Shown: piece by piece, positions 422-52,974 of the stretch
Position numbering within the stretch: the stretch's first letter is position 1
Layout of the letters: each line of letters begins with the position of its first letter
DNA from: Halobacteriales archaeon QS_3_64_16
GTDB lineage: Archaea > Halobacteriota > Halobacteria > Halobacteriales > Halococcaceae
Direction of reading: 5' to 3'
Length of the DNA stretch: 64,000 bases
Assembly: GCA_003021705.1 (NCBI GenBank)
Contig: PXRJ01000038.1
Span: 1 to 64,000, forward strand
Program-made: the position numbers and the translations under genes
Notes under the pieces: model-generated
Databases searched by the model: none
What the model saw: only the letters and a program-made list of their open reading frames with translations
Told to the model about the DNA's origin: nothing

Positions 422-428
422 GATCTAT

Positions 429-1960: not shown

Positions 1961-2449
1961 CTAATCCTCGACATTGTAGTCCTCGCGATCGACATCGTAG
2001 GTGTCTCCATCGCTGCTTCGGTCCTCGGGGTCGGGAAAACCACCGGTGTAGGCCGTTCCGGCGTACAGGCCCCCAGTCCGGGCGTTGACGTAGGGCCGAA
2101 CGACGAAGCGCTTGGTCGCGACGCGGATCGGATACCGGCTCGGAGGAATCACCAGGATCAATCCTACTAGGTCGGTCACCAAGCCAGGGGTGAGCAGGAA
2201 GGCCCCGGCGGCGATGAGCAAGCCCCCATCCAGCAGTTCGTCGGCCGGGAGTTGGCCTTGCCCGAGTTTGTTCTGGATCTTCCGGGCGGTGTGTCTGCCC
2301 TCCGCACGGACGAGCAACAGGCCGATCAGCCCCGTGAGGACGACGAGCACGACCGTCGGGAGCGCTCCCAGACGGGTCGCGATAAACACTAACAGCACGA
2401 TGTCGAACAGCGGGATGAGAAGGAGCAACCCGATGATCCGGAGCAACAT
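1961..2449 (-). CDS. fxsA: FxsA-family membrane protein
   Basis: A 162-residue membrane protein. After MLLRIIGLLLLIPLFDIVLL come a second helix (LPTVVLVVLTGLIGLLLVRAE) and a third, with the typical FxsA stretch around DGGLLIAAGAFLLTPGLVTD. The acidic cytoplasmic C-terminus (about 45 residues) is typical of haloarchaea. The ATG at 2449 puts the first helix at the very N-terminus, as usual in the family; a longer reading adds an unnatural Arg/Pro-rich extension. FxsA was named for relieving F-exclusion of phage T7 in E. coli; its role in archaea is unknown. Confidence 0.85.
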   Translation of the reverse strand: MLLRIIGLLLLIPLFDIVLLVFIATRLGALPTVVLVVLTGLIGLLLVRAEGRHTARKIQNKLGQGQLPADELLDGGLLIAAGAFLLTPGLVTDLVGLILVIPPSRYPIRVATKRFVVRPYVNARTGGLYAGTAYTGGFPDPEDRSSDGDTYDVDREDYNVED

Positions 2450-2572
2450 ACCCCGCCTACTCGGCCACGCCTCAAAACGTTTTAGCCTCGGGCGAAAGGG
2501 CGCCGCCGCTGGGCGGGAAAGAGCGCGGAGAACGCGAGCGCGCACACGAAGCGGTAGCTCGGAATCTGGACA

Positions 2573-3526
2573 TCAGTCGGCGGCCGGGACCGGCTCGCCG
2601 TCGCCGTCCAGCTCCCCGCGTAGCGTTCCGAGGGTCGCGACCCGTTCGGCGTGAGCGTTGTGCTGGTGGATCGATTCGTCGTTCGACTGTTCCATACGGA
2701 TCACTGCCTCGTCCGAAAGCACCTCGAGCCGGGCGACACAGCCCGCGGCCATGTCCCGCACACAGTCCTCGACGAACTTCGCGTTCGCATGGGAGCGATG
2801 GGTCATGTAATCTTCGTCGGGGCGTTTCGCGAGATTGTAGATCCGGGCGCTCATTGCCTCGCGGGCGATGTCGATTACGTCGAGCAGGTCGATCTCCGGC
2901 TCGCCCTCGCTCTCGACAGTGAGGGTGGCGTGACCGCGCTGGGCGTGGCCCGACTGGGGTACTTCCTCCAGAAAGCGCTCGACGACCCCCTCTTCAACGC
3001 CTAACTCCAGTAACGTCTCTCGTGCGCGCGAAGCGGACATTCCCTGGGAGCATGGACAGACCGTCATCCCGGTCACTTCCGCGCCGATCTCCTCGGTGGT
3101 GCCCTTCTCGGTGGCCGTCGCACCCGCCTTGACCGTAACGGTGTGCTGGGTCGGCCGCTCGGTCGCCGGGGTCCGTTCGTCGAGTACGAGATCGGCGTCC
3201 ATGCTGACCTCCGCGCGGGAGGTATACTCGTGTTTCTCGAGCAATCGTTCGGCGACGTCGCCACAGACGTCCTCAGTTCGGTAGGCCGGCTCGCGGACGG
3301 CGGCCTCGATCGTCTCGTCGATCACCTCCATATTCCGACTCATGTCCGCGCCCTTGCGCCAGCCGGGCAGATCGACGTAAACCGAAAAGGTCGCCATCAA
3401 TACGACCGGGCAGTCCCCGCTGCGCGACAACGAGAGTCGTTTCTCGACGTCGGTGACCCCGACGCGATTCAACCCTACCGTCACGTCCGGACGCGAGGCC
3501 TGTACGTCCGGCAACCCGTGGCTCAT
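2573..3526 (-). CDS. mptA: GTP cyclohydrolase MptA/FolE2
   Basis: A 317-residue enzyme of the MptA/FolE2 (COG1469) tunnelling-fold family, which opens the GTP ring as the first step towards pterins and 7-deazaguanine tRNA nucleosides. The diagnostic metal-binding segment [14 protein letters not shown] is present about mid-protein, and [11 protein letters not shown] and the [18 protein letters not shown] stretch match the family. In Haloferax the homologue serves both folate and archaeosine synthesis (known for the family, not shown here). The ATG at 3526 gives the usual start [15 protein letters not shown]; the in-frame extension upstream is not family-like. No other pterin gene is adjacent. 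Confidence 0.9.
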
Positions 3527-3737
3527 TACACAATAGTTAGGTTCGGGGTTCGTTATGGGTTTCGACCCACGCCGGGTCGCCGTTCGATCGGTCACTGCCA
3601 AACCGGGTCACTGCCTGACCGAATCGTCGCCCGAACCCCCTGTGCGACCTGCGATCGGAATCGGATCCCGGCGAGAATTGATTAGCGATGGCGAGACGAT
3701 CGGGGGGTATGAAGCGATTCGTCCGGGGCGATCGTCG

Positions 3738-4772
3738 GTGAGCGACGATCCCGAGCGGTCGGCACCGGACGATCGGTCGGAGACCGACCGGCCGGCGGAC
3801 TCGACGGGAAACGTGGGTGAGGGCGGCCGAAACGACCAGGACACCCGAGACGCCCAAGACGAGCACGACGACCGAGACGACGGGGAGAGGAGAGACAGTG
3901 AGGACGAAGCGGATGGCGACGACGATGCTACGAGCGGTCAGCGTGAGTCGGGAGAGCTGTTCGAAGAGGACTTCGCCAGCGCGTTCGAGACCGGCGGTGG
4001 GGCAGGTGGCTCGGGAAGCGCCGGAAGCGGGGACGATCCCGCGGAATTCGAGAGTGGAGAGGAGTTCGATTCGGCTATCCCGCGGATCGATCTCGGCATC
4101 GAGGGATTGGATGCGATGGTCCGTGGCGGCATCCCGGAGCGATCGCTGATCGCGGTGATCGGCAGCGCCGGCACGGGAAAGACCACGGTGGGACTCGAGT
4201 TCCTCCAGCAGGCACTTCGCAACGACGAGAAAGCGATTTTCATCGCTCTCGAGGAGAGCCGCGGGGCGGTGCTCGATACCGCCGCGGAGAAAGGCTGGGC
4301 GTTCGAGCGATACTGCGAGGAGGAACGGCTCGCGGTCGTCGACATGGACCCGATCGAGATGGCGAGAAGCCTCCGGGGGATCCGCAGCGAACTCCCCCGG
4401 CTGATCGCCGAGTTCGGTGCATCGAGAGTCGTGCTCGATTCGGTCTCACTGCTCGAGACGATGTACGACGATCCCGCAAAGCGCCGGACGGAGATCTTCG
4501 CGTTCGCACGAAGCCTAAAGGAAGCGGGCGTCACCACGCTGCTCACGAGCGAGGCCGCGACCGAGAGCGCGTACGCTTCCCGGTATGGCATCGTCGAGTA
4601 CCTCACCGACGCCGTGTTCGTCCTCCAGTACGTCCGGCCCTCCGACTTTCAGGAAACTCGCCTCGCCGTCGAGATCCAGAAGATACGCAATGCCGATCAC
4701 TCCCGGGAGACCAAACCATACGAGATCACGAACAAGGGGGTCGACGTCCACCGGCAGGCGAATTTCTTCTAG
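3738..4772 (+). CDS. KaiC/RAD55-type ATPase with acidic N-terminus
   Basis: A 344-residue RecA-fold ATPase. The single KaiC-like domain starts near residue 115 (IPRIDLGIEGLDAMVRGGIPE), has Walker A GSAGTGKTT and a Walker B-like strand ending in VVLDSVSLL. About 110 residues before it are a hyperacidic, low-complexity Asp/Glu/Ser/Gly region, probably disordered. I chose the GTG at 3738 (VSDDPERSAPDD); the frame is open further upstream to 3555 but the translation there is Arg/Pro-rich and unnatural. Proteins of this type are often signalling or gas-vesicle/motility-associated ATPases in haloarchaea; no partner is adjacent, so the role is open. Confidence 0.75.
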   Translation: MSDDPERSAPDDRSETDRPADSTGNVGEGGRNDQDTRDAQDEHDDRDDGERRDSEDEADGDDDATSGQRESGELFEEDFASAFETGGGAGGSGSAGSGDDPAEFESGEEFDSAIPRIDLGIEGLDAMVRGGIPERSLIAVIGSAGTGKTTVGLEFLQQALRNDEKAIFIALEESRGAVLDTAAEKGWAFERYCEEERLAVVDMDPIEMARSLRGIRSELPRLIAEFGASRVVLDSVSLLETMYDDPAKRRTEIFAFARSLKEAGVTTLLTSEAATESAYASRYGIVEYLTDAVFVLQYVRPSDFQETRLAVEIQKIRNADHSRETKPYEITNKGVDVHRQANFF

Positions 4773-5002
4773 GGACCCTTTGCGCTGCGCTCGTTCGGTG
4801 CGCTGACGCGCACCTTACTCGCTCGGCAAAATCTCCACCAAAAGCACTCCTCGCTCCTGTCGCGCTCGTTGCACTCGCGCGGTGGTCGCTCGTCGGCCCG
4901 CTCCTTCACTCCCTCCGGTCGTTCAGTCGCGGGGGACCGCTCGCTCGCCTCTGGCTCACTCGCGGATACTGGGACACCACAGAGCGGTCGATAGCAGGTC
5001 AG
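4773..5002. repeat. intergenic repeat, copy 1 (distal half)
   Basis: This gap lies between two convergent genes and is filled by CGCTCG-rich sequence. GCAAAATCTCCACCAAAAGC at 4826-4845 matches, with one or two changes, the A/T-tract core of the repeat copies near 6.6, 17.4 and 45.0 kb. The conserved GCATCCGCGAGC end seen in other copies is absent. No coding potential is seen. Confidence 0.6.
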
Positions 5003-5719
5003 TCAGTAGGCGACGAGGACCGCCGGGTCCGGCATGGCGGTCGGCGCGCCTTCATACCAGTCGTACGTCTCGGTGGTGTAGCCCGGTTCCTCCAGCGCGT
5101 CAGCGATCGTCTCTTCGTCGAAGAGCGTGAGGGTATGGGTGTCGACGAAGTGCTTCTCGCCGATGAACACGAGCGCGTCCATCCGAGCTCGGTTAGCGCT
5201 CCCGTGTCGGCACTGATAGAGCCGGGCACAGTCCCGATCGGCTGCCGACGAGACTTGGAGCGCTGGGCTGTCCATTGCCGGGAAGTCACCGACGTCGAGA
5301 ACTAAAATACTCTCCTCGGCGAGGGCGTCGGTCAGTGCGGCCAGCGCGTCGGCCAACTGATCGGGTTCGAGGTAGTTCAGAACGGTGTAAGGTGCCCACA
5401 CGAGGTCGAAAGTCGGGGACTCGTCGGCGTCGAACGCTGAGACGAGATCCGGCAGTCCGCCGCGGACAAAGGTTCCAGCCGATCGCTCGCGCGCCCGGTC
5501 GAGCATCGCCGGGTTCGGATCGACGCCCGTGACCTCGAAGCCCTGCTCGCCGAGAACGGCGCTGTGCTGACCGGTCCCACAGCCGACGAGAAGCGCTCGG
5601 TTCCCGTCGTTGCCGTGCGCGTTGAACCGATCGATCGCGAAGGCTACCTCGCTCTCGTAGTCCTTCGTCGCGTAGAGAGCGTCGTAAACGTCGGGTCGGT
5701 CGTAGAGCGCCTGTTCCAT
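5003..5719 (-). CDS. class I SAM-dependent methyltransferase
   Basis: A 238-residue enzyme. The SAM-binding motif I is ALLVGCGTGQHS (about residues 43-54), followed by the acidic end of strand 2 (VTGVDPNPAML). The strand-4 region reads FDLVWAPYTVLNYL. The C-terminal half is a substrate-binding subdomain with EKHFVDTHTLTLF. The fold is clear but the substrate is not; it resembles small-molecule methyltransferases rather than RNA or protein ones. It has its own start (MEQALYDRPDVYDALY) and no operon partner. Confidence 0.8.
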   Translation of the reverse strand: MEQALYDRPDVYDALYATKDYESEVAFAIDRFNAHGNDGNRALLVGCGTGQHSAVLGEQGFEVTGVDPNPAMLDRARERSAGTFVRGGLPDLVSAFDADESPTFDLVWAPYTVLNYLEPDQLADALAALTDALAEESILVLDVGDFPAMDSPALQVSSAADRDCARLYQCRHGSANRARMDALVFIGEKHFVDTHTLTLFDEETIADALEEPGYTTETYDWYEGAPTAMPDPAVLVAY

Positions 5720-6002
5720 ATGTCGAGTAGCGAATCGCTGGCGACAAAAATTCGCGGTCGAAAGGAGAGAGCGTCGGTCAGTCGGTATTCGACAGGTAAT
5801 CGAGCCGTGTTCGTAGCTATGGCTGGATAGTAGTGGAAAGTATCGACCAGTCGCCGACTGTCGGCCCTCGTTTCGACTTCACGGCCCGAATTCTCATTTC
5901 GGCACTGCCGACGAACGACACGTCTTTAGCAGTGAGATTGGCGAGCGATCGAACCAGTCGAATTGGGCTTAACTACTACATTTCCCAACCGTTCGTCGAA
6001 GT

Positions 6003-6221
6003 ATGAACACACGGTTTCAGGTTCTGGAGACGATCGGGCTCACCGTCGTATTGGTCATAGCTATCGTCGTCGGCATTGCACTCACTACCGCGATAGAAGG
6101 AGAGGTCAACTGGCTTCTCGTTCTCGGAGCTACAGTCGGAGCCCTCGGATCGTGGTCAGGAGCGCGCGAGAAGGCCATCGATCGGTGCAAGAAACGCCAG
6201 AAGGGGGATGGGAGCGATTAG
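6003..6221 (+). CDS. small two-helix membrane protein
   Basis: A 72-residue protein with two hydrophobic helices (about residues 12-30 and 37-52) and a basic C-terminal tail rich in Lys/Arg. A TATA-like CTTAACTA at 5968-5975 lies about 30 nt before the ATG, consistent with a leaderless mRNA. Its stop overlaps by four bases the stop of the convergent gene at 6218-6436, which has exactly the same length. No family recognised. Confidence 0.6.
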   Translation: MNTRFQVLETIGLTVVLVIAIVVGIALTTAIEGEVNWLLVLGATVGALGSWSGAREKAIDRCKKRQKGDGSD

Positions 6222-6436
6222 AACGGCAGATAACGGTCGTACAGATCGTCGATCGCCTCGTTGTACTCCTCGCCGCGCTGTGAGCCCCAAGGGTTCCGGG
6301 AAAAATAATACATGCTGGCGAGGATCACGCCGATGGTAACGCTGAGCTGTGGCGCGAGTGCCCCGACCACGAATGACGACAGGCCGGCGATCAGTCCCGA
6401 GACGAGCACGTCTACCAGCTGGTGTGTGGCGGACAT
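6218..6436 (-). CDS. small membrane protein, convergent with 6003 gene
   Basis: A 72-residue protein with two hydrophobic segments (about residues 7-27 and 30-46) and an acidic C-terminal tail ending DDLYDRYLPF. The ATG at 6436 was chosen because it begins just before the first helix; the open frame extends to 6568 but would add repeat-derived sequence. Family not recognised. The opposing tail charges of this protein and its convergent neighbour are noticeable. Confidence 0.6.
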   Translation of the reverse strand: MSATHQLVDVLVSGLIAGLSSFVVGALAPQLSVTIGVILASMYYFSRNPWGSQRGEEYNEAIDDLYDRYLPF

Positions 6437-6531
6437 ACCCCGCATTCGAACGACGGCTACTAAGACTGTGCTTTCACCGTAGCTGGACAGAGGCGAGGAT
6501 CGATTTCCCCCTCGTGCTGAAACCACACATA

Positions 6532-6678
6532 GCATCCGCGAGCGAGCGATAGTGAGCGAGCGGTTCACCGGGACCGAGTGCCATCAGGCACGAGGGAGCG
6601 GCCTTTTTAGTCCAGGTTTTTGCTGAGCCCGCAGCGAGTGCGAGCGGAGCGAGCGCGAGCGAGGACCTCAGCAAAAAA
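6532..6678. repeat. intergenic repeat, copy 2
   Basis: The copy begins with GCATCCGCGAGC at 6532-6543, continues through a GAGCGAGCGGTTC segment, and ends in GGCCTTTTTAGTCCAGGTTT at 6600-6619. It is followed by a long inverted repeat: TTTTTGCTGAG at 6617-6627 and CTCAGCAAAAA at 6667-6677. The whole block separates the stop of valS from the gene at 6218-6436. The T-run directly after the valS stop (minus strand) could act as its transcription terminator. Confidence 0.65.
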
Positions 6679-6686
6679 GTGAGTGC

Positions 6687-9395
6687 CTAGGGGAAGATCA
6701 GAACTGTTGCGCTATCAGTCTCGAGCACGGCGACCTCCTCGCCGCCCGCGCGGGGTTCCTCTTGTACTTCGATCGCTTCGCTATCGAGGACGACGACCTC
6801 GCCGTTTGTATCGAGCTCGATCTCGTCCTCGTGTTCGAGTTGGCGCTTGAGATCGCCGGGATCGCTGTCTTCGAGCGCGCTGACGACCGCGCCCGCCCGG
6901 TCGCGGAACTCCGGCCCGATCACGCTGTGATCGGGCTCGACATCCACGGGAACGAGCTCGACGTTCGGCCGGCCGGCCTCGACGTAGATCGGCGCGCCGA
7001 CGGTCTCGCTCAGATCGTAGGTGTCGAGATGGTCGGTCCCCTCGGGGTAGATCTCGATGCGTTCGAGGTCGGCGTTGAGCGCGCGGCCGGTCTCGGACTT
7101 CCAGGCCCGGACCTCGCTCGCGACCGCGGCGATCAGCGCCCCGCGCTGTTGTGCGTCCTCATCGTGGGCGTCGAGCGCGGGCCAAACAGTGGCGTGGACG
7201 CTGCCCTCGGTGCCTGGCAAGTGGCTGTAGGCCTCCTCGGCTAAGAACGGCGCGAAGGGCGCAAGCATCCTCAAGGAAGCTTCCAGCACGGTCGCGAGCG
7301 CGTGGCGGGCGGCGTCGCGTTCACCGGGCCGGCCCTCGTAGAGCCGGCCTTTAATCAACTCGACGTAGTCGTCGGCCAGGTCGTGCCAGACGAACTCTCG
7401 AAGTTCTCTGAGCGCCCGATCGAACCGGTAGTCGTCCATGTCCCGGGCGACCTCGCTCGCGACCTGGGAGCACCGCGAGAGAATCCAGCGGTCGGCGTCC
7501 CGGTAGGCCGGGTCCTCGACTGCGAGGTCTTCCTCCAGGTGGTCGGTTGCGAAACGTGTGATGTTCCAGGTTTTGGTCAGAAAGCGGGCAGCACTCGTCA
7601 CTTCCTTGGGCTGGAACTGGATATCGCTACCGGGCTGGCCCCCCAGTGCGATCGCCTGCCGGAAGGCATCCGCGGAGTGCTTCTCGACCACTTCTTCCGG
7701 TTGGACGAAGTTGTCTCGGGATTTGGACATCTTGTTGCCGTCCTCGCCGAAGACCATCCCGTGGATTAACGCCTCTTCCCAGGGGACCTGATCTTCCAAC
7801 GCAGCGGTCCGCAGCAGGGTGTAAAACGCCCACGTGCGGATGATGTCGTGGCCCTGGGGACGCAGCGAGACTGGACTAAAGGACTCCTCGGGCCACCCCG
7901 AGACGAAAAGGGGCGAGATCGACGAATCCATCCAGGTGTCCATCACGTCGGTCTCGCCTGCCCAGTCACTCGCCCCACACTCCGGACACGAGTCTATTTC
8001 CGGGTCCTCCTCGGTCGGTTCGACGGGTAGGTCCTCCGAATCGGCGACGTGGACGTGCCCGCACTCCGCACAGAACCAGGCAGGGATCGGCGTCGCGAAC
8101 ACCCGCTGGCGGCTGATTACCCAGTCCCACTCCATGCCATCGGCCCAGTCCTCCAAGCGGCTGTAGGCGTGTGCGGGGATCCACTCGACGTCCTGTGCTT
8201 TGTCAAGGATCTCCTCGGTGTCGACCCGGACGAACCACTGTTCCTTGCTGAGGATCTCGATAGGCGTATCACACCGCCAGCACGCGCCGACGGACTGTTC
8301 GACCGGCTCTTCGTCGTCGAGGTGGCCCGACTTCTGGAGCTCGGTGGCGATCCGTTCTTTGGCCTCGCCGATCTCCAGCCCGCCGAACTCAGCTACGTCT
8401 TCGGTGAGACGACCGTCCTCGGTGAAGACCTGTCGGAGCGGGAGGTCGTACTCCTGCCACCAACTCACGTCCTGTTTGTCGCCGAACGTACAGATCATTA
8501 CCGCGCCGGTCCCGAAGTCGGGATCGACCTCACTATCGGCGAGGATCTCGACGTCCTGGCCGAACAGCGGGACTTCGACCGTCTCGCCGGCCCGCCCGTC
8601 GTAGCGGTCGTCCTCGGGATGGACGGCGATCGCCACGCAGGCGGCCATGAGTTCCGGCCGGGTGGTCGCGATCTCGATCCCGTCTTCGGCGTCGGTGTCA
8701 GTATCGGCGTCCTCGCCGGCTCCGGGGAAGGAAACGTAGTACAGCGCCCCGCCGCGGTCGATCGCTTCGACTTCGGCATCGGCGATCGCCGTCTCGCAGC
8801 GCGGACACCAGTTGACGGGGTGTTCGTCGCGGTAGACGTAGTCGTCCTCGGCCATTGCGGCAAAGGAACGCTGGGTCCGGCCCCAGTACTCCGGATCCAT
8901 TGTCCGGAACTCCGCCGACCAGTCCTGGGAGAGGCCCAACTCGTCCATGGTTGCTTTCATCGAGTCGATCTGGGTCTCGGTGTGGGAAGTACACCACTCG
9001 CGGAACTGCTCGCGGGAGACATCGGTCCGGTGAGTATCCTTGTTCTCCTCGACTTTGACCTCGGTCGGAAGCCCGTGACAGTCCCAGCCCTGCGGGAAGA
9101 GGACGTTTTCGCCCTGGAGGCGGTGGTACCGAGCGGCGAAATCCATGTAACACCAGCCCAAGGCATTGCCGATGTGGAAATCGCCGGTCGGGTAGGGTGG
9201 CGGCGTATCGATCACGTAGTCGGGCCGATCGCTCTCCGGAGGTGTGTCGGCTGCGTCGATGTCGTCGGCTTCCTCGCGGTCCTCTTCGGAACCCTCGCCG
9301 GATCGTTCGTATCGATAGAGGTCGCTGCCGGCCCACTGGTCGCGCCACTTCGGTTCGATAGCGTCGGGATCGTAGGTCTCTGGGATCTCGGTCAT
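6687..9395 (-). CDS. valS: valyl-tRNA synthetase
   Basis: A 902-residue class I aminoacyl-tRNA synthetase that charges tRNA-Val. The HIGH signature appears as HIGN at residues 74-77, after PPPYPTGDF. The inserted editing domain contains ATTRPELM, the KMSKS loop is intact (KMSKSRDN, about residue 550), and Cys pairs (CPRC, CWRC, CAEC/CPEC) mark zinc knuckles as in archaeal enzymes. The anticodon-binding alpha-helical domain follows from about residue 620. An acidic insert at residues 32-57 precedes the catalytic fold. Full length and intact. It is monocistronic and transcribed towards the repeat at 6.6 kb. Confidence 0.97.
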
Positions 9396-9701
9396 CTGTA
9401 GGAGTCGTCGCTGTCCGCTGTCGGTACCGCGCGTCAGAAGCGGGAACGTAGCTACGGATGTACTACCACGGACGCGACGCGCATACCTGTTGCCAGTGGA
9501 CGTGTGTTGATAAAGGTTGTCGGTCCACGCCTCGTCTCGACCTCATCCATCCGCTTTCGTTCCTTTCCGTCCCCTCCCGTTCTCCCTTCTGTCCTCGTCG
9601 ATCCGGGGGGCCGCCGGCCGCGCCGAGCAGTATCGAGTCCGGTGGCGATCGAGGCAGGAGTTTGTATTCCGTAGAGAACTATCCGGATATGGATCGAGAC
9701 G
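9396..9701. other. divergent promoter region, valS and transducer pseudogene
   Basis: A 306-bp gap between two divergent genes. It contains an AT-richer patch near 9505-9520 (TTGATAAAGGTTG) that could be a TATA element. Open frames here have unnatural compositions; no gene, RNA or repeat is supported. Confidence 0.4.
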
Positions 9702-11199
9702 ATGGGAGTCGACGGTTCCGATACCCGAGCTTCGGACCGATCTGCCCCGCCTGCATCGACATCGGCGGCGATGTCCGACGCGGGACCGTTGTACAACGAG
9801 ACACTGACCGACGCGCTGCCGTCGGTCGTCTTCGTGCTCGACGACGAGGGTATCGTTCGGCTGTGGAACCGAGCGGCCGAGGAGTTCACCGGAACGGCTC
9901 GCGAGGACGTCCTCGGCACAGCGACAGTGAGTGCGGCCTTCTACCAGGACGATCGGCGGGCGAAGACGCTCGCGGACAAAGTAGTCGAAGCGCCCGAGTG
10001 GGCCGATGAGGTCTTCGGCGTAGAGCGCTCGACGGAGGTGTCCTACACCCGCTACGAGGATTCCAGTACGATGTTGAACGCGAAGGGCGAGGAAGTTCAC
10101 ATCGACTTCACTGCCGCCTATCTACGAGGACGACGAGTTCGTCGGCGTCGCCGAGATGGTCGAGGACTGCTCGGAACAACGCACGATGAAAGGGCTCGTG
10201 AGCGAGGTGAACGAGACGCTTTCGGCACTGGGCTCGGGTCAGTTATCGGCCCGGGCGAGCTTCGAGGACCCCAGGAACACGCTCGACGCGGATCGAGTAA
10301 GCATCGTCACTCACGTCAACGAAGCCGCATCGAACCTGGAGGAAACCTACTCACAAGTCGAACGGGAAACGGAGGTATTGGTCGGCCAGACCGACGAGAT
10401 CACCGAGCTAGCGAGCGAGATCGAATCGCTCACCGACGATCAGTACGAGGACCTCGATCAGGTGGTCGGCAAGATGGAGCAGTTCAGCGCGACGATGGAG
10501 GAGGTCGCCGCCACCGCCCAGCAGGTCACTACCGCCGCCGAACAGGCTCGAAGCGCGGCCACGGCGGGCCAGCACTCCGGCAAGCGCGCGAGCGAAACGG
10601 TCGAGTAGACCGTTGATGCGGGCGAGGCGCTCGTCTCCCAGGTGAACGCCCTCGAATCCCGGATCGAGGGAATCGTCGACGTGGTCGACATCATCGACGA
10701 AGTCGCCGATCAGACGAACCTGCTCGCGCTGAACGCCTCGATCGAAGCCGCCCGCGCGGGCGAAGCCGGTGCTGGCTTCGCGGTGGTTGCCGACGAAGTA
10801 AAGAGTCTCGCCGAGGAGACCCAGGAACACACCGACAGGGTCGGCGGGCAGATAACGGCTGCTCAGGAGGAGATGGCCGAAACCGTCGAGGCCGTCGAGA
10901 CCTCGAACGACCGAATCGAAGCGACGAGCGGGGAGATCGACGATATGCTCGGATCGTTAGGTGAGATCACGGCGGCCGTCGAGGAAGCTGCCGACGGAAT
11001 CGAGACGGTCGCGGAGGCGAACGACGACCAGGCCGAAACCGTCGAGGAAGTCACGGCACTCACCGAAGGTGCCGCGGACGACGCCAGTGAGGTTCGGGGG
11101 ATCGTCGAGGAGATCGCGACGAACGCGGACGAGCAACAAGAGGTGGTGACCGGACTCGCCGACCACGTCGGCGACCTCGACGGGAGTACCTCGACCTAA
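9702..11199 (+). pseudogene. PAS-domain chemotaxis-type transducer, broken
   Basis: Reading through the lesions gives a soluble methyl-accepting transducer of about 499 residues: a PAS domain (VVFVLDDEGIVRLWNRAAEEF), a linker, and a full MCP signalling hairpin (tip around [20 protein letters not shown]). There are no membrane helices. Two lesions are seen. A frameshift near 10118-10122, where TAAPIYEDDEF would be expected, moves the frame by one. An in-frame TAG at 10606-10608 interrupts the coiled coil. If this is real the gene is dead; if the assembly is wrong it would be a cytoplasmic Htr-type sensor for taxis. Three open segments remain: 9702-~10120, 10156-10608 and 10642-11199. Confidence 0.8.
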
Positions 11200-11361
11200 C
11201 GTACCGACGCGGGGACCGGATACCGAAACACCGAGGAGGGCGAAGAGGACGACGTTCGGGGGTCACGGCGAGTGCACCGAGAAGCGTCAGCGTGTTCGAC
11301 GTCGGTGTGTTCGAACAGGAGAATCGCAATCACCTAGTCACCTTCGGCCATATCCCGGTCC

Positions 11362-12264
11362 ATGCAACTGGGCGTAGTGGGGTTAGGGCGGATGGGGCGG
11401 ATCGTCGTCGAACGCGTACTCGGAGCCGGCCACGACGTCGTCGCCTTCGATGTCGATGCACAAGCGCGCGGAACTGCGGCCGAGGCGGGAGCGACGCCCG
11501 TCGACTCGCTCGCTGCGTTCGATCGGGAACTGAGCGACGAAAAGCGGATCTGGCTCATGGTGCCGGCTGGCGAAGCGGTCGATGCTGCGCTCTCCGATCT
11601 CGAAAGCGATCTCGACAGGGAGGACGTCGTCGTCGATGGCGGGAACTCCCATTTCGCCGACTCGGTCCGCCGAGCTGAGAGCACTCCAGCAGCCTACCTC
11701 GACTGCGGGACCTCGGGGGGACCGGCAGCCGCCGAGGCGGGTTTTTCGCTCATGGTCGGCGGGCCCGCCTGGGCTTACGAGGCCATGGAACCGGTCTTCG
11801 AAGCTGTAGCGACCGGCCCGGCAGGCCACGAGCGCATGGGACCCTCTGGTGCGGGCCACTACGTCAAGACGATCCACAATGGCGTCGAGTACGCGCTGAT
11901 GCAGGCCTACGGCGAGGGTTTCGACCTGTTATCCAATGGTCGGTACGACCTCGATCTCGAAGCCGTTGCCCGCACCTGGAATCACGGCGCGGTGATCCGC
12001 TCGTGGCTGCTCGAGCTCTGCGAGGAGGCTTTCCGCGAGGAAGGGAGTGACTTGGGCACCGTCGCCGATCGGGTCGCGGGCGGCTCGACCGGCCGTTGGA
12101 CGGTAGAAGAAGCTCTGAAGCAGGAAGTGCCAATGCCGCTGATCCAGGCCGCACTCGCCGAACGCTACGCGAGTCGCGTCCCGGACGAAGGACGTTTCTC
12201 TCGACGGCTCGTCAACCGACTGCGATACGGCTTCGGCCGTCACGAGGTCGCGCGCCGGGAGTGA
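11362..12264 (+). CDS. gnd: 6-phosphogluconate dehydrogenase (decarboxylating)
   Basis: A 300-residue enzyme that oxidatively decarboxylates 6-phosphogluconate to ribulose 5-phosphate. The N-terminal Rossmann fold starts LGVVGLGRMGRIV; the substrate motif DGGNSHFADS and the catalytic stretch GPSGAGHYVKTIHNGVEYAL (Lys and Asn positions) are intact. The short length matches the archaeal/YqeC-like form rather than the 470-residue bacterial one. In haloarchaea this enzyme belongs to the oxidative pentose phosphate pathway. No glucose-6-phosphate dehydrogenase is in the window. Intact between two decayed genes. Confidence 0.92.
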   Translation: MQLGVVGLGRMGRIVVERVLGAGHDVVAFDVDAQARGTAAEAGATPVDSLAAFDRELSDEKRIWLMVPAGEAVDAALSDLESDLDREDVVVDGGNSHFADSVRRAESTPAAYLDCGTSGGPAAAEAGFSLMVGGPAWAYEAMEPVFEAVATGPAGHERMGPSGAGHYVKTIHNGVEYALMQAYGEGFDLLSNGRYDLDLEAVARTWNHGAVIRSWLLELCEEAFREEGSDLGTVADRVAGGSTGRWTVEEALKQEVPMPLIQAALAERYASRVPDEGRFSRRLVNRLRYGFGRHEVARRE

Positions 12265-12533
12265 TCGAACCGTCGAACGCAAACGATCACGACCGTCGTT
12301 TGCGAGACAGTGATCGGTCCTGTGGCGACCAAGTAACGAGCGGCGGGGCCGGAGACATTTCACCGTCGTCGGAGACCGGTTCTCGACACTGCTCTCGACG
12401 AGGGCGACGGACACGTCTTCGGGCCGAATACCTGGTCGTCCCCGAACGGTTCGACGATGGGAGTGGAAAGCGCGTTCGTGCTTCGACGATCACTCGAGGT
12501 CGCCTGCGGGTATTCGCCGTCTCCGGTATCCGG

Positions 12534-12945
12534 TCAGGAGGCGATCAGGACAACGCTGATCGCGGCTAGACCGACGCCGAGTGCATTCTTCGCTGTGAGC
12601 GGTTCGTCGAAGAAGACGATTCCTAAGATCGCTCCGCCGACGATGAACATCCCATAGACGGGGACGATGACGCTCACCGGCCCCGTCGCCAGCGCTCGGA
12701 AGTATGACGACGGCCGCCGTGAGCGCGAGACCGGCCGCGTACGCGTACAGCGCCGGTCCGCTCGTATACGACCCGAAGCTCCACTCGCTGGTCACAGCGG
12801 TAGCTCCGACGGCTACTATCGCTACGATCACCACCGAAACGGTCATGACGGTGAAACCCGGCAGGCGTTCCATCGCGAGCTTCGCGAAAAGGAACACGAA
12901 AGAGTAGCTGACCATCGCGACTACCGTCCAGAAGAGATAGTTCAT
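12534..12945 (-). pseudogene. EamA-like small membrane transporter, frameshifted
   Basis: The minus strand encodes a single EamA/DMT unit of about 137 residues, starting MNYLFWTVVAMVSYSFVFLF and ending ALGVGLAAISVVLIAS. Midway the frame shifts: one extra base near 12703-12706 separates ALTAAVV from YFRALATGPVSVIVPVY. Both halves are well-preserved hydrophobic helices, so the shift is recent or a sequencing error. Half-size EamA proteins of this type usually dimerise to form a drug/metabolite exporter. The ferredoxin gene at 13052 is divergent. Confidence 0.75.
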
Positions 12946-13051
12946 GCTCGCGAGTCGGGTCACGCTCCCATGTATGCTGGCTCCCTCCGTCGCTCGTGAG
13001 CGTGGTCTCTGTAAACGACAGGTAATTGTACGGCGATTTCGTAGCCCGCGT

Positions 13052-13639
13052 ATGGTCGAGGCGTTCGGATTCGGGCTCGGGGTGGCGTTCACGCTCATCG
13101 TCGTCGTACTACACTTCGCGAAGGGCACTGGGCGAACGATCCCCAACGACATCTCCCAGGACGTCCTCGAGCGGCGCGCCGAGACGGTTCCCGAGACCGA
13201 CTTCCCCGAGCCGATGAACCGGGCGATCGGCGGCGGGGCTGCTCCTGCCGGCGCGGTCGGTGCGGGGGAGGGAGCTGGCGAACTCGAAGAGGGCGAAGCC
13301 GAGGAGGAAGGTGCCACGAGTCCCGCGGAGATCCCAGACGACGAAGCAGACACCTTCGAGATCGAATACGAGAAGGAAGGCGAGACCCTCGAGGTTCCCG
13401 AGAACCAGACCCTGCTCGAGGCCGGCGAGGAGCAGGGCTGGGACCTACCGTATGCCTGTCGGCAGGGCCAGTGTATCTCCTGTGGCGGCCAGGTCACCAG
13501 CGGCGGGAACTCAGAGGACTACCTCGTGCACGACGGCAACGAGATGCTCGGCGAGGAGGAACTATCGGACGGCTATACGCTCACGTGTGTTGCCTACCCG
13601 ACCTCGGATCTCACGCTCGCGAGCGGCGAGAGTCCCTGA
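13052..13639 (+). CDS. membrane-anchored 2Fe-2S ferredoxin
   Basis: A 195-residue protein: an N-terminal hydrophobic anchor (GFGLGVAFTLIVVVLHF, residues 5-21), an acidic Glu/Gly/Ala linker, then a C-terminal plant-type 2Fe-2S domain of about 85 residues. The ligands are visible as ACRQGQCISCGG plus a later LTCVAYP. The ATG at 13052 begins immediately before the helix. It is expected to carry single electrons at the inner face of the membrane, but no redox partner is adjacent. A tRNA-Arg gene follows. Confidence 0.9.
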   Translation: MVEAFGFGLGVAFTLIVVVLHFAKGTGRTIPNDISQDVLERRAETVPETDFPEPMNRAIGGGAAPAGAVGAGEGAGELEEGEAEEEGATSPAEIPDDEADTFEIEYEKEGETLEVPENQTLLEAGEEQGWDLPYACRQGQCISCGGQVTSGGNSEDYLVHDGNEMLGEEELSDGYTLTCVAYPTSDLTLASGESP

Positions 13640-13759
13640 GCGGCAGAACGACGAAGAAGGTCCATTCTTCGGCCTCACTTCAGCTTCAGAATCGATCGAC
13701 TCGTTCGTCGCTTCACAGGTTCACAATCGTTAACCGAGTCGCTCGAATAGGGAAGACGA

Positions 13760-13832
13760 GGGCGTGTAGCTCAGTGGACAGAGTTCTTGGTTCCGGACCA
13801 AGACGTCGCGGGTTCAAATCCCGTCGCGCCCG
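13760..13832 (+). tRNA. tRNA-Arg (anticodon CCG)
   Basis: A 73-nt tRNA. The acceptor stem pairs GGGCGTG with CGCGCCC (one G-U), the anticodon stem CTTGG/CCAAG encloses a loop with CCG, and the T-arm is GGGTTCAAATCCC. The discriminator is G and CCA is not encoded. A TATA-like GTTAACC lies at 13729-13735, about 25 nt upstream. Confidence 0.95.
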
Positions 13833-13955
13833 CTTTCGTTGTCCTGGTCCGAGAGCACGAGCGATCACGTCACACCGGAGCGATGGCTAGCCGGACAGCA
13901 ACCTCGCGTCCTTCAGCACCGAAGAGTAACTACTGTGCAGTGCGAAGAACCGACA

Positions 13956-14233
13956 ATGGATCAGTGTGAACTCTGTGATCGCACGATCGAGACGACCGAA
14001 CACCACCTGATCCCGAAAAACCGGAAGGAAAGTCCCACCGCTCGTCTCTGTCAGCCCTGCCACAAGCAAGTTCATGCGACATTCACGAATCACGAACCAA
14101 ACAGGAGTTTTACACCGTAGAACGACTCCGGGAGGCAAAGCGGCTCCAGTCATTTCTCTCATGGATCAGGACAACCGAGAAGACCGGTATCCAGGTCAAC
14201 GAGAGCGACCGCGTCCGGAACTGGCGGGAGTGA
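13956..14233 (+). pseudogene. HNH-type protein, frameshifted
   Basis: The first half reads MDQCELCDRTIETTEHHLIP, continuing to RLCQPCHKQVHATF: two CxxC pairs and HH, the layout of a haloarchaeal HNH nuclease-like protein. The frame is then lost near 14090-14104 and the other half continues at 14105 in a different frame (EFYTVERLREAKRLQSFLSW, ending VRNWRE). Total would be about 92 residues. A TATA-like GTAACTA at 13926-13932 is placed for a leaderless start at 13956. Either real decay or a base-calling error; a programmed shift cannot be excluded but nothing supports it. Confidence 0.75.
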
Positions 14234-14356
14234 TCGGAACCGAGGGCTCGCGGTCGCCCAATAGGGCCCAGCGCGGACTCGGGAAGTGCCCTTACCTGAT
14301 AGCGCGACGCGGCGAAACCGACGGTCCTTACCCGCCGGAAGGCGACGAACGGGTAA

Positions 14357-15004
14357 ATGTTGATTCTCGGCGACGCCCACGCGGACGACCCCGCCAACCG
14401 GCAGGCACTCCTGCATGCGTACGACGCGGCCGAGGAGACTTGCGCGCTCCAAGCCGGCGATCTCATGTACTACGATCTGCCCTACCGGACCTACTTCGTC
14501 GCCGGCAACAACGAGGACTTCGACGTGATCGACGCGCTCAGGCGCGGCGATAGCTCGCTTACCGACGAGGACCGACCTTACCTGCTGGCGAGCACGGTAG
14601 CGGAGATCGAAGGACTCCGGGTGGCCGGCCTCTCAGGGAACTACGCGCCGACGCGCTACGAGAAGAGCAGAGAGGAACTCCGTGGCGATCGACGCCGGCA
14701 CTTCACCCACGAGGACGTCGAGCGAGCCCGTTCGCTCACCGACATCGACGTCTTCCTGGCCCACGAAGCGCCCCACGGACTGATCAGTAACGCCGACTAC
14801 GAAGTCGGGAACCGGTACGTCGATACGATCATCGAGGAGCTCTCGCCCGCACTCTGTCTCGTCGGCCACCACCACCGCCACGCCGAGAGTGTAATCGGGG
14901 GGACCCAGGTGATATCACTGGCACCGGTCTGGGAGTCCTATTACCGTCTCGAGCCCGCGGCACTCTCGCTCGAACGCTACAAGACGCCAGCGGCGTCGGC
15001 CTGA
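14357..15004 (+). CDS. calcineurin-like metallophosphoesterase
   Basis: A 215-residue phosphoesterase. The metal ligands are visible in order: LILGDAHADD (the usual GDxH motif), AGDLMYYD, VAGNNEDF (GNND/E motif), FLAHEAPH, and GHHHRHAE. The family hydrolyses phosphomonoesters or phosphodiesters; the substrate is unknown. A TATA-like element (CCTTACC) precedes it. It ends convergent to the membrane-protein gene at 15130. Confidence 0.85.
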   Translation: MLILGDAHADDPANRQALLHAYDAAEETCALQAGDLMYYDLPYRTYFVAGNNEDFDVIDALRRGDSSLTDEDRPYLLASTVAEIEGLRVAGLSGNYAPTRYEKSREELRGDRRRHFTHEDVERARSLTDIDVFLAHEAPHGLISNADYEVGNRYVDTIIEELSPALCLVGHHHRHAESVIGGTQVISLAPVWESYYRLEPAALSLERYKTPAASA

Positions 15005-48607: not shown

Positions 48608-49720
48608 TTAGAGCGGTTCCTCGCCTTCGATGATCCGCTCGGCGCGTTCGACGAGCGCCGGGACTCGTTCTTCCATCTTCGGGTACATCGGGTCGTCCGA
48701 ATTCCCCTCCAGGTAGCGCCGGAAGAACATCTCACCCAGTGCGCCTAGCTTGTAGACCGCGAGCGCGCGGTAGAACGTCTCGTCGGTGAACTCGATGCCC
48801 GCTCGCTGTTCGTAGCGATCGACCAACTCCTGTCGGCTGGGATAGCCCTCCCGCTCCATGAACGTCGCGGTGAGTTCGGGGATCGAGGGCTCGGGGTCGC
48901 CCGCGTCGCGCCAATACGAAAGCATCCATCCCAGGTCCGCACGGGGATCACCGAGCGTCGAGAGCTCCCAGTCGAAGACGCTCACCAGCTTCGGAGGGGT
49001 GCTGGAGGCGTACATCACGTTATCGAGCTTGTAATCGCCGTGAACGAGTGTGTGGGGATACTCGCTCGGGCAGTTCGCGTCGAGCCACTCGCTGACGTCC
49101 TCTAACCTGGGCAAGTCGCGTTCCTCAGTGGTGAGTTCCATCGCCCAGTCGTACTGCTTGCCCCAGCGCTCGACCTGACGTTCGGTGTAGCCCTCCGGGT
49201 AACCGAACTCACCCAGCCCCACCGCCTCATAGTCGACAGCGTGGATCTCACAGAGCGCGTCGATGAGTTCCTCGCCGATCGCCTGGCGGCTTTCGGAGTT
49301 AGCGAACCGGTCGGCTTCCGATTCCCGGAGGACGGTGCCCTCGACCCGCTCCATCACGTAGAAATCGGAGTTCATGACGCTCTGGTCCTCCGAGCCCAGT
49401 ACCGTTGCCGGGACGCGGGCGTCGGTTCCCTGGAGGGCGTCGATCACCCGGTACTCTCGGAGGACGTCGTGGGCGGTCTCTGCGATCTCGCCCGGCGGTG
49501 GCCGGCGGACGACGAGTTCCCGATCGCCCCACGTGACGAAGAGGGTCTCGTTCGAGTGACCCTCTTGGTGGTGGCGGACGTCGTACTCGTTCACGGAGCC
49601 GAGTTCGGCTTCGAGATACTCCGCTAAGATTTCCTCGTCGACGAGGCGTGCGAAGTACTCGCCGTCCTCCCGGGTCTCATCGTGGCCGTCTCGGGTTCCG
49701 GTGTCGGTGTCCCTACTCAT
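48608..49720 (-). CDS. APH-family phosphotransferase (ACAD10/11 kinase-like)
   Basis: A 370-residue aminoglycoside-phosphotransferase-fold kinase. The catalytic loop LVHGDYKLDNVMY and the metal-binding VFDWELSTLGDPRADLGWML are intact, with GHSNETLFVTWGDRELVVRRPP as the nucleotide-binding start and an AVDYEAVGLGEFGYPEGYTERQVERW lid. This is the architecture of the APH part of ACAD10/ACAD11-type proteins. ATG at 49720 chosen. Divergent to the acyl-CoA dehydrogenase, 136 bp apart. Confidence 0.87.
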   Translation of the reverse strand: MSRDTDTGTRDGHDETREDGEYFARLVDEEILAEYLEAELGSVNEYDVRHHQEGHSNETLFVTWGDRELVVRRPPPGEIAETAHDVLREYRVIDALQGTDARVPATVLGSEDQSVMNSDFYVMERVEGTVLRESEADRFANSESRQAIGEELIDALCEIHAVDYEAVGLGEFGYPEGYTERQVERWGKQYDWAMELTTEERDLPRLEDVSEWLDANCPSEYPHTLVHGDYKLDNVMYASSTPPKLVSVFDWELSTLGDPRADLGWMLSYWRDAGDPEPSIPELTATFMEREGYPSRQELVDRYEQRAGIEFTDETFYRALAVYKLGALGEMFFRRYLEGNSDDPMYPKMEERVPALVERAERIIEGEEPL

Positions 49721-49856
49721 GTGCGCCGGGTTCGCCGCCGGCCCATAACATCCTTCGGGTCGTTCGCTTTCGGTGGTGGTCACGAGTTCGCCTCACCGTC
49801 GCGCCAACTCCCGCTCGTCCCGTGGCTTTAGGACCTCGTGTGTGCAATGCCGAGAC

Positions 49857-51017
49857 ATGGAGTACAACGACTCCGAGACGGCCCGCGAATTGGCCGAGCG
49901 CGCACGTGCGTTCATGGACGAGGACATCGCCGACCTGCGCGGCGAGGCTCGCGAGCGCGACCTCTATGCACCCCAAATCTCCGAGGAACACGGCGGCATG
50001 GGACAGGACTTCCGGGACGTTCTGCCGCTGTTCGAACAGGCCGGCCGGTCGCTGCTCGGCGCGCCCGCGATGCGCGTTGATGCCCCCGACGAAGGAAACA
50101 TGCACACCTTCGAACTCGTCGGCACCGACGCCCAAAAACAGGAGTACCTCAACCCGCTGGTCGCCGGGGAGATCTCTTCTGGCTTTTCGATGACCGAACC
50201 GCTTCAAGGAGGTGGCTCGGACCCGAAGATGCTCCAGACGACTGCGGAGAAAGACGGCGACGAGTGGGTTATCAACGGGCACAAATGGTGGACCACCCAG
50301 GGCTCGGCCGCCGACGTCCTGTTGGTGATGGCTCGCACGAACCAGGAGGCCCACCCCTATTCGGGCTGTTCGTTTTTCCTCGTATCGCCGGATATGGACG
50401 GCGTCGAGATCGTCCGGGACATCCCTCACGTCGGGCCCTCGATGGTAGGTGAAGGTCACGCCGAGATCAAATATGATAACGTACGGGTCCCCGAAGAGAA
50501 CCTCCTGGGCGAGCGCGACCAGGGCTTCCAGCACGCTCAACAGCGCCTCGGACCCGCGCGCCTGACTCACTGTATGCGCTTCACCGGGATGGCCACCCGC
50601 GCGCTCGAGATCACAAAGGCCTACCTGGACGAACGCGAGGGCTTCGACTCCCCGCTCTCGGAGAAACAGGCCCTTCGCTACGAGATCGCCGAGGCCGAAA
50701 CCCGGCTGCACGCCGTGCGGACGATGGTCAGGGACGCCGCCGATAAGATCGCGGCGGGCGAGGAAGCCCGAATCGAGGTCGGGATGTCGAAGGTCTTCGC
50801 CGCGAACGTCACCCAAGGGGCGATCGACACCGCCTTGCAGTTCTGTGGGGCGAACGGCATCGGCCGGGATCTGCCGATCGCCGACTTCTACGAGGCGGTC
50901 AGGGCCTTCCGGATCGTCGACGGCGCGGACGAAGTCCACAAGCGCGTGATCGCCCGGGACGCCTTCGAGGACCTGGACGAAGCGGAGCTAGAGGCCATCA
51001 CCCGCTACGACGAGTAG
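49857..51017 (+). CDS. acyl-CoA dehydrogenase, ACAD11-like
   Basis: A 386-residue flavoenzyme. SGFSMTEPLQGGGSDP, INGHKWWTTQGSAADVLLVM, RLGPARLTHCMRFTGMATRALE and YEAVRAFRIVDGADEVHKRVIARD match the ACAD10/11 subfamily. The N-terminal helix pair appears about 15-20 residues shorter than usual: after RARAFMDE the sequence goes straight to DIADLRGEARERDLYAPQ, suggesting an in-frame internal loss. FAD- and active-site regions are otherwise intact. Divergent from the APH kinase. Confidence 0.9.
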   Translation: MEYNDSETARELAERARAFMDEDIADLRGEARERDLYAPQISEEHGGMGQDFRDVLPLFEQAGRSLLGAPAMRVDAPDEGNMHTFELVGTDAQKQEYLNPLVAGEISSGFSMTEPLQGGGSDPKMLQTTAEKDGDEWVINGHKWWTTQGSAADVLLVMARTNQEAHPYSGCSFFLVSPDMDGVEIVRDIPHVGPSMVGEGHAEIKYDNVRVPEENLLGERDQGFQHAQQRLGPARLTHCMRFTGMATRALEITKAYLDEREGFDSPLSEKQALRYEIAEAETRLHAVRTMVRDAADKIAAGEEARIEVGMSKVFAANVTQGAIDTALQFCGANGIGRDLPIADFYEAVRAFRIVDGADEVHKRVIARDAFEDLDEAELEAITRYDE

Positions 51018-51078: not shown

Positions 51079-51597
51079 TCAGTCCCCCTGCGCCGTCGAG
51101 ATCGACGTTCCATACTCCCCGCAGGTCGCTTCGAGGTCGATGCGTTCGGCCTGCCACTCGCCCGAACCGACCGGCAGGCAGTTATGGATGGTCTCGCCGT
51201 TACACTCCGGACACTCGATGAGTACCTCCAACTCCGCCCAGTCGTGTCGCCGACCGGGCGCGCCGAACCCGAGCGCGACGACCCGCTCTTCGCTTTCGTT
51301 CGTGCCCTTCTGGAACTCCCCCGGCGCGATACGGATCGCCTCGCTCTCGCCGACCGTGATTCGCTTCGGGTCCCGCCCGATCTGGAAGGTCGCCGTCCCG
51401 CTCAAAACGTAGAACACCTCCTCCTGGTCGCCGTGACGGTGGCGCAGTCCGCCCGAGAACGCCTCGCCGGGCTCTAACTCGTAGTACACTAACCCGAAAT
51501 CCGTCGTTCCCAGCCCTTCCGAGACCGACCGCCGGACGCTGTTGACGCCCATCGGGTGCTCGACGTGATCGAGGTCTCCGATCGTGATCTTTTCCAT
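51079..51597 (-). CDS. cupin-domain protein
   Basis: A 172-residue protein. The cupin metal motif 1 reads GGLRHRHGDQEEVFYVLSG, followed by APGEFQKGTNESEERVV as motif 2. A C-terminal extension has CPEC and a lone Cys (LEATCGEYGTS), maybe a zinc site. Function not known; cupins bind small organic ligands or metals. ATG at 51597. Divergent to the sirtuin gene. Confidence 0.8.
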   Translation of the reverse strand: MEKITIGDLDHVEHPMGVNSVRRSVSEGLGTTDFGLVYYELEPGEAFSGGLRHRHGDQEEVFYVLSGTATFQIGRDPKRITVGESEAIRIAPGEFQKGTNESEERVVALGFGAPGRRHDWAELEVLIECPECNGETIHNCLPVGSGEWQAERIDLEATCGEYGTSISTAQGD

Positions 51598-51702
51598 ACG
51601 AGTGCCCCTTCCGGCCGGGTGATAAATCGTGGTGTTCGTGATCATCCCTCTGTCGATCGAGGGTGGCCGAGGAGCTTTGCTTCTCGCAGCCCGTCCGGAT
51701 AC

Positions 51703-52497
51703 GTGAACGCGACCGACACCGACGACGCCGAGAGCGTGAACGAAGAGACGATCCGATCGCTCGCCCGGGCGATCCGCGGGGCCGACTCGACGGTCGCGCT
51801 GACCGGCGCGGGGGTTTCGACGGCCTCGGGCGTCCCCGACTTCCGGGGCTCAGGTGGTGTCTGGAAGTGCCACGACCCGCGGGATTTTCACCTCGCTCGC
51901 TTCGAGCGCGATCCGGCCGGCTTCTGGACCGATCGCCTCGCCCTGTTCGAGACTATGTACGGCGATCGCGAGATCGAGCCCAACGCCGCCCACGAGGCGC
52001 TCGCCCGGCTCGAATCGGTGGGCGAACTCGACGCACTCGTGACACAGAACACGGATGGTCTCCACGGGGACGCCGGCTCCGAGAACGTAATCGAGCTACA
52101 CGGCAACGGCAGCCGCGTGGTCTGTCGAGCGTGTGGGGAGCGTACCGACGCCGATGTTGCCCGCGAGCGGGTTCGGGAAGGCCATACCCCGCCGCGCTGT
52201 TCGTGTGGCGGGCTCTACAAGCCCGACGTCGTGCTCTTCGGCGAGGACCTCCCTGAAGGTGCCCGTTCCCGCTCGCAGGCACTCGCCGACAACGTTGACG
52301 TCTTCCTCGTCGCTGGCTCCTCGCTCACCGTCGAACCGGCTGCCTCCCTCCCGCGACGGGCCGCCGACAGCGGGGCGACGCTTTCGATCGTTAACCTCGA
52401 CCCGACCTCAGTATCCGATCGGGCGCCCTACGATCTTCGAGCCGACCTCATCGACGCGCTCCCGCGGGTGACCGAGGCGGTGCTTGAGGAGAACTGA
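51703..52497 (+). CDS. NAD-dependent protein deacylase (sirtuin)
   Basis: A 264-residue Sir2-family enzyme. GAGVSTASGVPDFRG, TQNTDGLHGDAGS, the catalytic His in ENVIELHG, four zinc Cys (CRAC, CSCG), and GSSLTVEPA near the end are all present. It removes acyl groups from protein Lys using NAD. The GTG at 51703 puts a short acidic stretch before the Rossmann fold. Targets unknown. Confidence 0.93.
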   Translation: MNATDTDDAESVNEETIRSLARAIRGADSTVALTGAGVSTASGVPDFRGSGGVWKCHDPRDFHLARFERDPAGFWTDRLALFETMYGDREIEPNAAHEALARLESVGELDALVTQNTDGLHGDAGSENVIELHGNGSRVVCRACGERTDADVARERVREGHTPPRCSCGGLYKPDVVLFGEDLPEGARSRSQALADNVDVFLVAGSSLTVEPAASLPRRAADSGATLSIVNLDPTSVSDRAPYDLRADLIDALPRVTEAVLEEN

Positions 52498-52572
52498 TCG
52501 CCGGACGACCGAGTCCGACGACCCGATCCCGGCGGTAGGCTTTTGCGCCGGGTCGGCCTGGGTTCGCCTGCC

Positions 52573-52974
52573 ATGGACTACAGTGTCACACACGTCGAGG
52601 ACGTCCCGGTCACGGATCTCTCTGCGATCGATGCGATCCCACCGGATCACGACATCCGCGCGATCGGCGACGCCTTGGATCTCGAAGAGACGAACGTCAG
52701 CGTCTGGTACTTCGAGCCGGGCGAGGAGATCGGCTACCACGCTCACTCCGAGCAGGAGGAGTTGTATTACGTCCTCGAAGGGGAGTTCTCGCTCAAGCTC
52801 GGTCGTTCAGGTGAAGAAGAGATAGTCGAAGCCGGTCCGGGGACCGTCTTCGCGGCTGGACCCAAGATCGGCCACGGGCATCGCTACACCGGCGACGACG
52901 TAGGAGTAGTACTCGCGATCGGCGCGCCGCCGGTCGAGGACCCCGGCCTCGACCCACACGACGTGGAGGAGTGA
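52573..52974 (+). CDS. cupin-domain protein
   Basis: A 133-residue single-domain cupin. YHAHSEQEELYYVLEGEF is motif 1 (His, His, Glu) and AGPKIGHGHRYTGD is motif 2. Acidic C-terminus. It lies 75 bp after the sirtuin in the same direction, so may be co-transcribed. The ATG at 52573 starts MDYSVTHVEDVPV. Function unknown; not the same family as the cupin at 51079. Confidence 0.85.
   Translation: MDYSVTHVEDVPVTDLSAIDAIPPDHDIRAIGDALDLEETNVSVWYFEPGEEIGYHAHSEQEELYYVLEGEFSLKLGRSGEEEIVEAGPGTVFAAGPKIGHGHRYTGDDVGVVLAIGAPPVEDPGLDPHDVEE

Follow-up and report, generated by a model that had tools for sequence, protein, structure and literature searches.

Bacteria and animals have a recently discovered pathway in which 4-hydroxy fatty acids are phosphorylated on the way to their breakdown. 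A phosphate-elimination mechanism has been proposed for the acyl-CoA dehydrogenases (ACADs) ACAD10 and ACAD11 (PMC11342911). Cryo-EM and mutagenesis of mouse ACAD11 identified D753 as the base and R626, H634 and R637 as the site of the 4-phosphate, R631 being shared by all ACADs; the key residues of its kinase domain are D220, N225 and R176 (PMC12440821). In Pseudomonas putida, LvaA and LvaC are encoded by separate genes of the lva operon for levulinate catabolism, as relayed from Rand et al. 2017 by PMC6692424 and PMC12440821, and LvaA requires the 12-kDa LvaB (PMC6692424). LvaA/LvaC-type homologues occur in Alpha-, Beta- and Gammaproteobacteria (PMC6692424), and separate Burkholderia enzymes substituted for the ACAD10 domains in vitro (PMC11342911). 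Judged from its sequence, the haloarchaeal gene pair described here is a well-supported archaeal member of this known enzyme pair.

Organization of the locus

The window, a stretch of 64,000 nucleotides, lies on contig C38 of a haloarchaeal assembly of 2.83 Mb (70 contigs, 79% complete). The initial annotation had described a kinase gene and an ACAD gene that face away from each other at a distance of 136 bp, and our coordinates confirm this layout.

48608..49720, minus strand: APH-family kinase, candidate 4-hydroxyacyl-CoA kinase of the ACAD11 type; ATG start, 370 aa; Pfam APH, E 6.5e-49
49019..49036, minus strand: catalytic loop of the kinase, D229-YKLD-N234 (HGDYKLDN), aligned to D220/N225 of mouse ACAD11
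49721..49856, no strand: 136-bp spacer separating the two divergent start codons, read from the sequence
49857..51017, plus strand: ACAD of the ACAD10/11-LvaC type, candidate 4-phosphoacyl-CoA phosphate-eliminating enzyme; ATG start, 386 aa; assigned by Pfam Acyl-CoA_dh_N/M/1, PDB matches, tree and residues
49917..49928, plus strand: junction of an in-frame gap of 18 residues (54 bp) in the ACAD relative to other haloarchaeal orthologues, from DNA and protein alignment
50544..50579, plus strand: phosphate site R230-L-GPAR235-LT-H238-CM-R241, aligned to R626, H634 and R637 of mouse ACAD11 and the common R631
50919..50921, plus strand: D355, aligned to D753, the catalytic base of ACAD11; the residue is Glu in conventional ACADs

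The kinase open reading frame was listed with 391 aa from a GTG farther upstream, and the 370-aa version begins at the ATG. Both promoters presumably lie in the spacer. Pfam searches found no beta-oxidation genes in the surroundings of the pair in the window, which hold a PH-domain protein, cupins and a sirtuin. Neither an SDR nor a ligase gene adjoins the pair, which is divergent and not a single operon of the lva type. Beside the ACAD, at 51079-52974, lie genes for a cupin, a SIR2-type deacetylase and another cupin; sirtuin or cupin neighbours were seen again in several related genomes.

Family membership and active site of the dehydrogenase

The best PDB matches of the window ACAD are 4hr3 from M. 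abscessus and mouse and human ACAD11 (8v3u, E 7e-57; 2wbi), and such sequence matches to solved ACAD11 structures settle the fold. Mapped through a HMMER alignment, D355, R230, H238, R241 and R235 of the window ACAD correspond to D753, R626, H634, R637 and R631 of mouse ACAD11. The sequence GPARLTHCMR, which the initial annotation had singled out as a subfamily signature kept by this enzyme, is found at 50550-50579 as residues 232-241.

We compared these positions in 166 homologues with 38% identity or more (114 from haloarchaea and 52 from bacteria) with those in 40 conventional ACADs. The equivalents of R626, R631, H634 and R637 read R-R-H-R and are invariant in all 166 homologues. The catalytic Asp is present in 165 of the 166 subfamily rows, the last being a gap, whereas 39 of the 40 conventional ACADs have Glu, again with one gap. 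Conventional ACADs carry F, T or W at the R626 position and V, I, L, T or Q at the H634 position; none of the 40 has the equivalents of R626 and H634, and the R637 equivalent is Arg in 5. The Asp together with the R/R/H/R set is a clean discriminator of the subfamily among the homologues collected.

Phylogenetic analysis split the ACAD11/4hr3 family, haloarchaeal ACADs included, from the conventional ACADs with support of 100/100. The haloarchaeal ACADs form a single clade (100/100) whose nearest bacterial relatives are Anaerolineae sequences, a weakly supported placement (83/61). Both the ACAD tree and the kinase tree were built without LvaA and LvaC sequences. Residues and tree led us to reject a conventional ACAD identity, and by the same measures the window ACAD belongs to the ACAD10/11-LvaC subfamily.

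Kinase type and the DUF6285 family

The best PDB matches of the window kinase are 9o56, 3dxp and the kinase domain of ACAD11 (8v3v, E 8e-46), to which it is 35% identical over 283 aligned positions. Its residues D229, N234 and R181 correspond to D220, N225 and R176 of ACAD11 and are conserved in 85 of 85 haloarchaeal kinases. R176 contacts CoA and has no counterpart in the kinases associated with DUF6285. R86 of ACAD11 did not map by its residue number; in the window kinase the Glu of helix C follows directly on an Arg (R88-E89). As the tree also groups the window kinase with that of ACAD11, it is, as far as sequence can tell, a kinase of the ACAD11 type. Aminoglycoside and thiamine kinases were considered and rejected, the NCBIfam scores being far under the cut-offs.

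Two types of kinase stand beside ACADs of this subfamily. The first possesses the equivalent of R176 and is found in mouse ACAD11, 3dxp, 9o56, haloarchaea and Dehalococcoidia. The second, without this Arg, is found in Thermus, Anaerolineae and Hyphomicrobiales, shares 23-29% identity with the window kinase and was followed by a DUF6285 (PF19802) protein in all five cases checked. Three long-branch bacterial kinases without the R176 equivalent are placed within the first type in the kinase tree, an unsure placement. DUF6285 was found in none of the 146 haloarchaeal genomes by a search in which positive controls were matched. DUF6285 may be the LvaB family; if so, the haloarchaeal kinase would be closer to a split ACAD10/11 than to LvaAB.

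Co-occurrence across genomes

The initial annotation had named co-occurrence of the pair across archaea as a check and its absence as a refutation, and each gene was searched across 146 genomes of the same order. Kinase and ACAD were found in the identical 86 genomes, also where they are unlinked, neither was found in 60, and in no genome was there a single one (Fisher 1.7e-42, a statistic that ignores kinship). In the eight genera that contain both states, presence or absence of the two genes matches genome by genome; the link has thus outlasted several independent gains or losses. Five genomes that had seemed to hold only the kinase were rejected as such, as a protein search found in all five an ACAD missed by the DNA pattern GPxRxxHCMR. 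A phylum-wide draw of 197 genomes gave matches restricted to members of the window's order.

Spacing was measured in 81 genomes in which the genes had been located by signature pattern. The two genes lie within 2 kb of each other in 49 (47 of them divergent by gap estimate), at about 9 kb or less in a further 11, and are unlinked in 21. The divergent order thus holds for most haloarchaea but is no universal rule. As at least 21 genomes have the genes unlinked, the co-occurrence is more than physical linkage, and the pairing is not chance. The perfect co-occurrence over 146 genomes lends independent support to the two-step mechanism. Together with family membership and the experimentally defined active-site residues, it also bears out the earlier proposal that the two proteins match the halves of ACAD10/11.

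Gene neighbourhoods

We inspected 94 stretches around the pair genes, with open reading frames scored by composition because GC-rich DNA yields antisense frames. The recurrent neighbours encode SDRs, acyl-CoA ligases, MaoC, PaaI-type proteins, an HTH regulator, a HAD hydrolase and a 655-aa fused 3-hydroxyacyl-CoA dehydrogenase/enoyl-CoA hydratase (HACDH). In 25 genomes from 7 families the HACDH gene is no more than four genes away from the kinase, often as the next gene downstream in the same orientation; an SDR occurs within four genes in 36 of 67 kinase loci and a ligase in 14 of 67. The window's own genome has HACDH relatives on other contigs. Neighbourhoods vary, and LLM flavoenzymes, Zn alcohol dehydrogenases and SCP2 were seen as well. 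In 18 of the haloarchaeal genomes a HAD gene stands close to the kinase. The HAD protein matches TIGR02247, which we take to be the ACAD10-like HAD class, weakly (30.5 bits, cut-off 125.4), and a score so far under the cut-off led us to reject its membership as an ACAD10-type HAD domain.

The plasmid pHME132 of Haloferax mediterranei carries a row of genes for ALDH, Zn-ADH, SCP2, ligase, a conventional ACAD, HTH, HACDH, the kinase (WP_004060557.1), the ACAD (WP_004060558.1), HAD and SDR. From its gene content, this block is apparently a complete 4-hydroxyacid or alcohol-to-beta-oxidation set on a plasmid. It spans 189-14955 of the stretch examined. Natrinema caseinilyticum has the kinase with HACDH, CaiB, the ACAD, an iron alcohol dehydrogenase, thiolase, ligase, ECH and an annotated hydroxyacid-oxoacid transhydrogenase. 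The cassette of Cupriavidus oxalaticus includes an iron alcohol dehydrogenase like that of Natrinema, both presumably of the kind that acts on 4-hydroxybutyrate. The divergent pair is also found in halophilic archaeon DL31 and Haladaptatus salinisoli.

Proposed pathway and its alternatives

As the ACAD11 residues for 4-phosphoacyl-CoA defined by mutagenesis are all present in the window ACAD, we consider it probable that the pair forms a two-enzyme bypass through which 4-hydroxy acids enter beta-oxidation. A 4-hydroxy acid would be activated to its CoA thioester, and the kinase would use ATP to phosphorylate the 4-hydroxyl of the 4-hydroxyacyl-CoA, giving 4-phosphoacyl-CoA. By analogy to ACAD10/11 and LvaC, D355 of the ACAD would then abstract the C2 proton while R230, H238 and R241 grip the phosphate. 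The FAD would pass through a redox cycle with no net oxidation, and elimination of the phosphate would yield the 2-enoyl-CoA. Enoyl-CoA hydratase/3-hydroxyacyl-CoA dehydrogenase and thiolase would complete the breakdown. The bypass is further supported by the conserved catalytic and CoA-binding residues of the kinase and by the beta-oxidation neighbours elsewhere, and it is weakened by the lack of beta-oxidation genes around the pair in the window.

The most likely substrates would be short 4-hydroxy acids, namely 4-hydroxyvalerate from levulinate or 4-hydroxybutyrate; longer-chain 4-hydroxy substrates are possible. In mineral medium, Haloferax mediterranei uses levulinic acid for growth, at a rate of 0.097 per h (PMC12455835), and it converts gamma-butyrolactone into a polymer containing 4-hydroxybutyrate (PMC6631277). 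Short substrates are favoured because of these observations on the organism, for which the pair would supply candidate enzymes.

The same phospho-elimination might serve another substrate, such as a long-chain, branched, isoprenoid-derived or otherwise-positioned hydroxyacyl-CoA in place of a short 4-hydroxy acid. ACAD11 prefers longer chains in vivo, the gene surroundings are variable, with the LLM flavoenzymes, Zn alcohol dehydrogenases and SCP2 noted above, and the pair is missing from 60 of 146 genomes, as would be expected for a dispensable substrate. The levulinate growth and gamma-butyrolactone uptake of H. mediterranei and the iron alcohol dehydrogenases in the Natrinema and Cupriavidus cassettes speak against such a substrate, which we regard as improbable. 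Far less credible still is an ordinary ETF-feeding ACAD that lies by accident next to an unrelated small-molecule kinase of the choline-, aminoglycoside- or thiamine-like kind. General models do say just ACAD and APH, and no NCBIfam equivalog reaches its cut-off, but Asp replaces Glu in this ACAD, the R/H/R triad is in place, and the trees put the ACAD with ACAD11/4hr3 (100/100) and the kinase with that of ACAD11. Moreover, 10 genomes having neither the pair nor the ACAD contain more distant haloarchaeal APH kinases (34-39% identity), so that APH genes generally do not track the ACAD. The co-occurrence of the pair, unlinked genomes included, largely refutes an accidental neighbourhood.

Another question is the condition of the copies in this genome. 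The window ACAD is missing 18 residues after residue 22, in the N-terminal helical domain, which are present in some form in all 112 haloarchaeal orthologue rows compared, and the reading frame of a second copy of the ACAD10/11 type, which lies at C1:41521-42743 and is 71% identical, is broken. The pair might thus be a decaying remnant of an intact kinase and a damaged ACAD. We consider this unlikely, though less so than the alternatives above, as the gap is exactly in frame, the remainder of the ACAD with every active-site residue is intact, a 79%-complete assembly in 70 contigs may contain errors, and two genomes of the same genus have intact genes. The ACAD copies of this metagenome-assembled genome may be defective or misassembled; unless they reflect assembly errors, the gap and the broken second copy point to a possible impairment of the pathway in this genome. 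Around the second copy (C1:31000-50000) lie many genes for ACAD, ligase, SDR, enoyl-CoA hydratase and thiolase-like proteins.

Returning to the 4-hydroxyacid bypass, we lean towards the broader view that Halobacteria run an archaeal branch of 4-hydroxy-acid phospho-elimination. The pair would have been acquired once from bacteria and jointly lost or moved many times, with an LvaB-free kinase of the ACAD11 type. Its substrates would be those of hypersaline habitats, whether levulinate, 4-hydroxybutyrate released from polyhydroxyalkanoate or 4-hydroxy fatty acids formed by lipid peroxidation.

Comparison with known systems

The initial annotation had presented separate enzymes for this pathway in haloarchaea as undescribed. 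The split form is not new, separate genes being the bacterial norm in the literature, as in LvaA/LvaC and the Burkholderia enzymes (PMC6692424, PMC11342911). The novelty of the archaeal occurrence stands within the open-access literature searched, in which we found no archaeal or haloarchaeal report of the pair. An archaeal branch without a DUF6285 partner appears to be the unreported part. The gene arrangement is ordinary for prokaryotes, and the interest of the pair lies in its lineage and its testability.

Like the lva operon, the haloarchaea have separate kinase and ACAD genes, the ACAD has the same subfamily residues, and several genomes have an SDR and an acyl-CoA ligase nearby, comparable to LvaD and LvaE. 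Unlike the lva genes, the window pair is divergent, its kinase is of the ACAD11 type and not of the DUF6285-associated type, and haloarchaea lack DUF6285, a protein of the 12-kDa class that lies beside some bacterial kinases as LvaB lies beside LvaA. Plasmid pTT27 of Thermus thermophilus HB8 and a plasmid of Cupriavidus oxalaticus also encode a separate ACAD (44% and 42% identical, with the same residues) and a kinase together with SDR and AMP-ligase genes. These cassettes differ in being co-directional operons, and in Thermus a DUF6285 gene follows the kinase, which is 23-25% identical and has no counterpart of R181.

The likeness to animal ACAD10/ACAD11 (PMC12440821, PMC11342911) extends to both halves, with a kinase 35% identical, an ACAD matching at E 7e-57, and all catalytic and phosphate-site residues kept. 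The HAD gene near the kinase in 18 genomes recalls the HAD domain of ACAD10, with the weak TIGR02247 match noted above. The haloarchaeal pair consists of two genes, whereas the fusion is the animal form. By this comparison, the kinase half of the animal fusion may be of a type that never needed a DUF6285-like partner. The pair would extend a pathway with human enzymes assigned in 2024-2025 into the third domain of life and would yield stand-alone, salt-stable forms of both halves. On paper it accounts for the growth on levulinic acid of the biotechnologically used Haloferax mediterranei, a genetically tractable and PHA-producing carrier of the pair.
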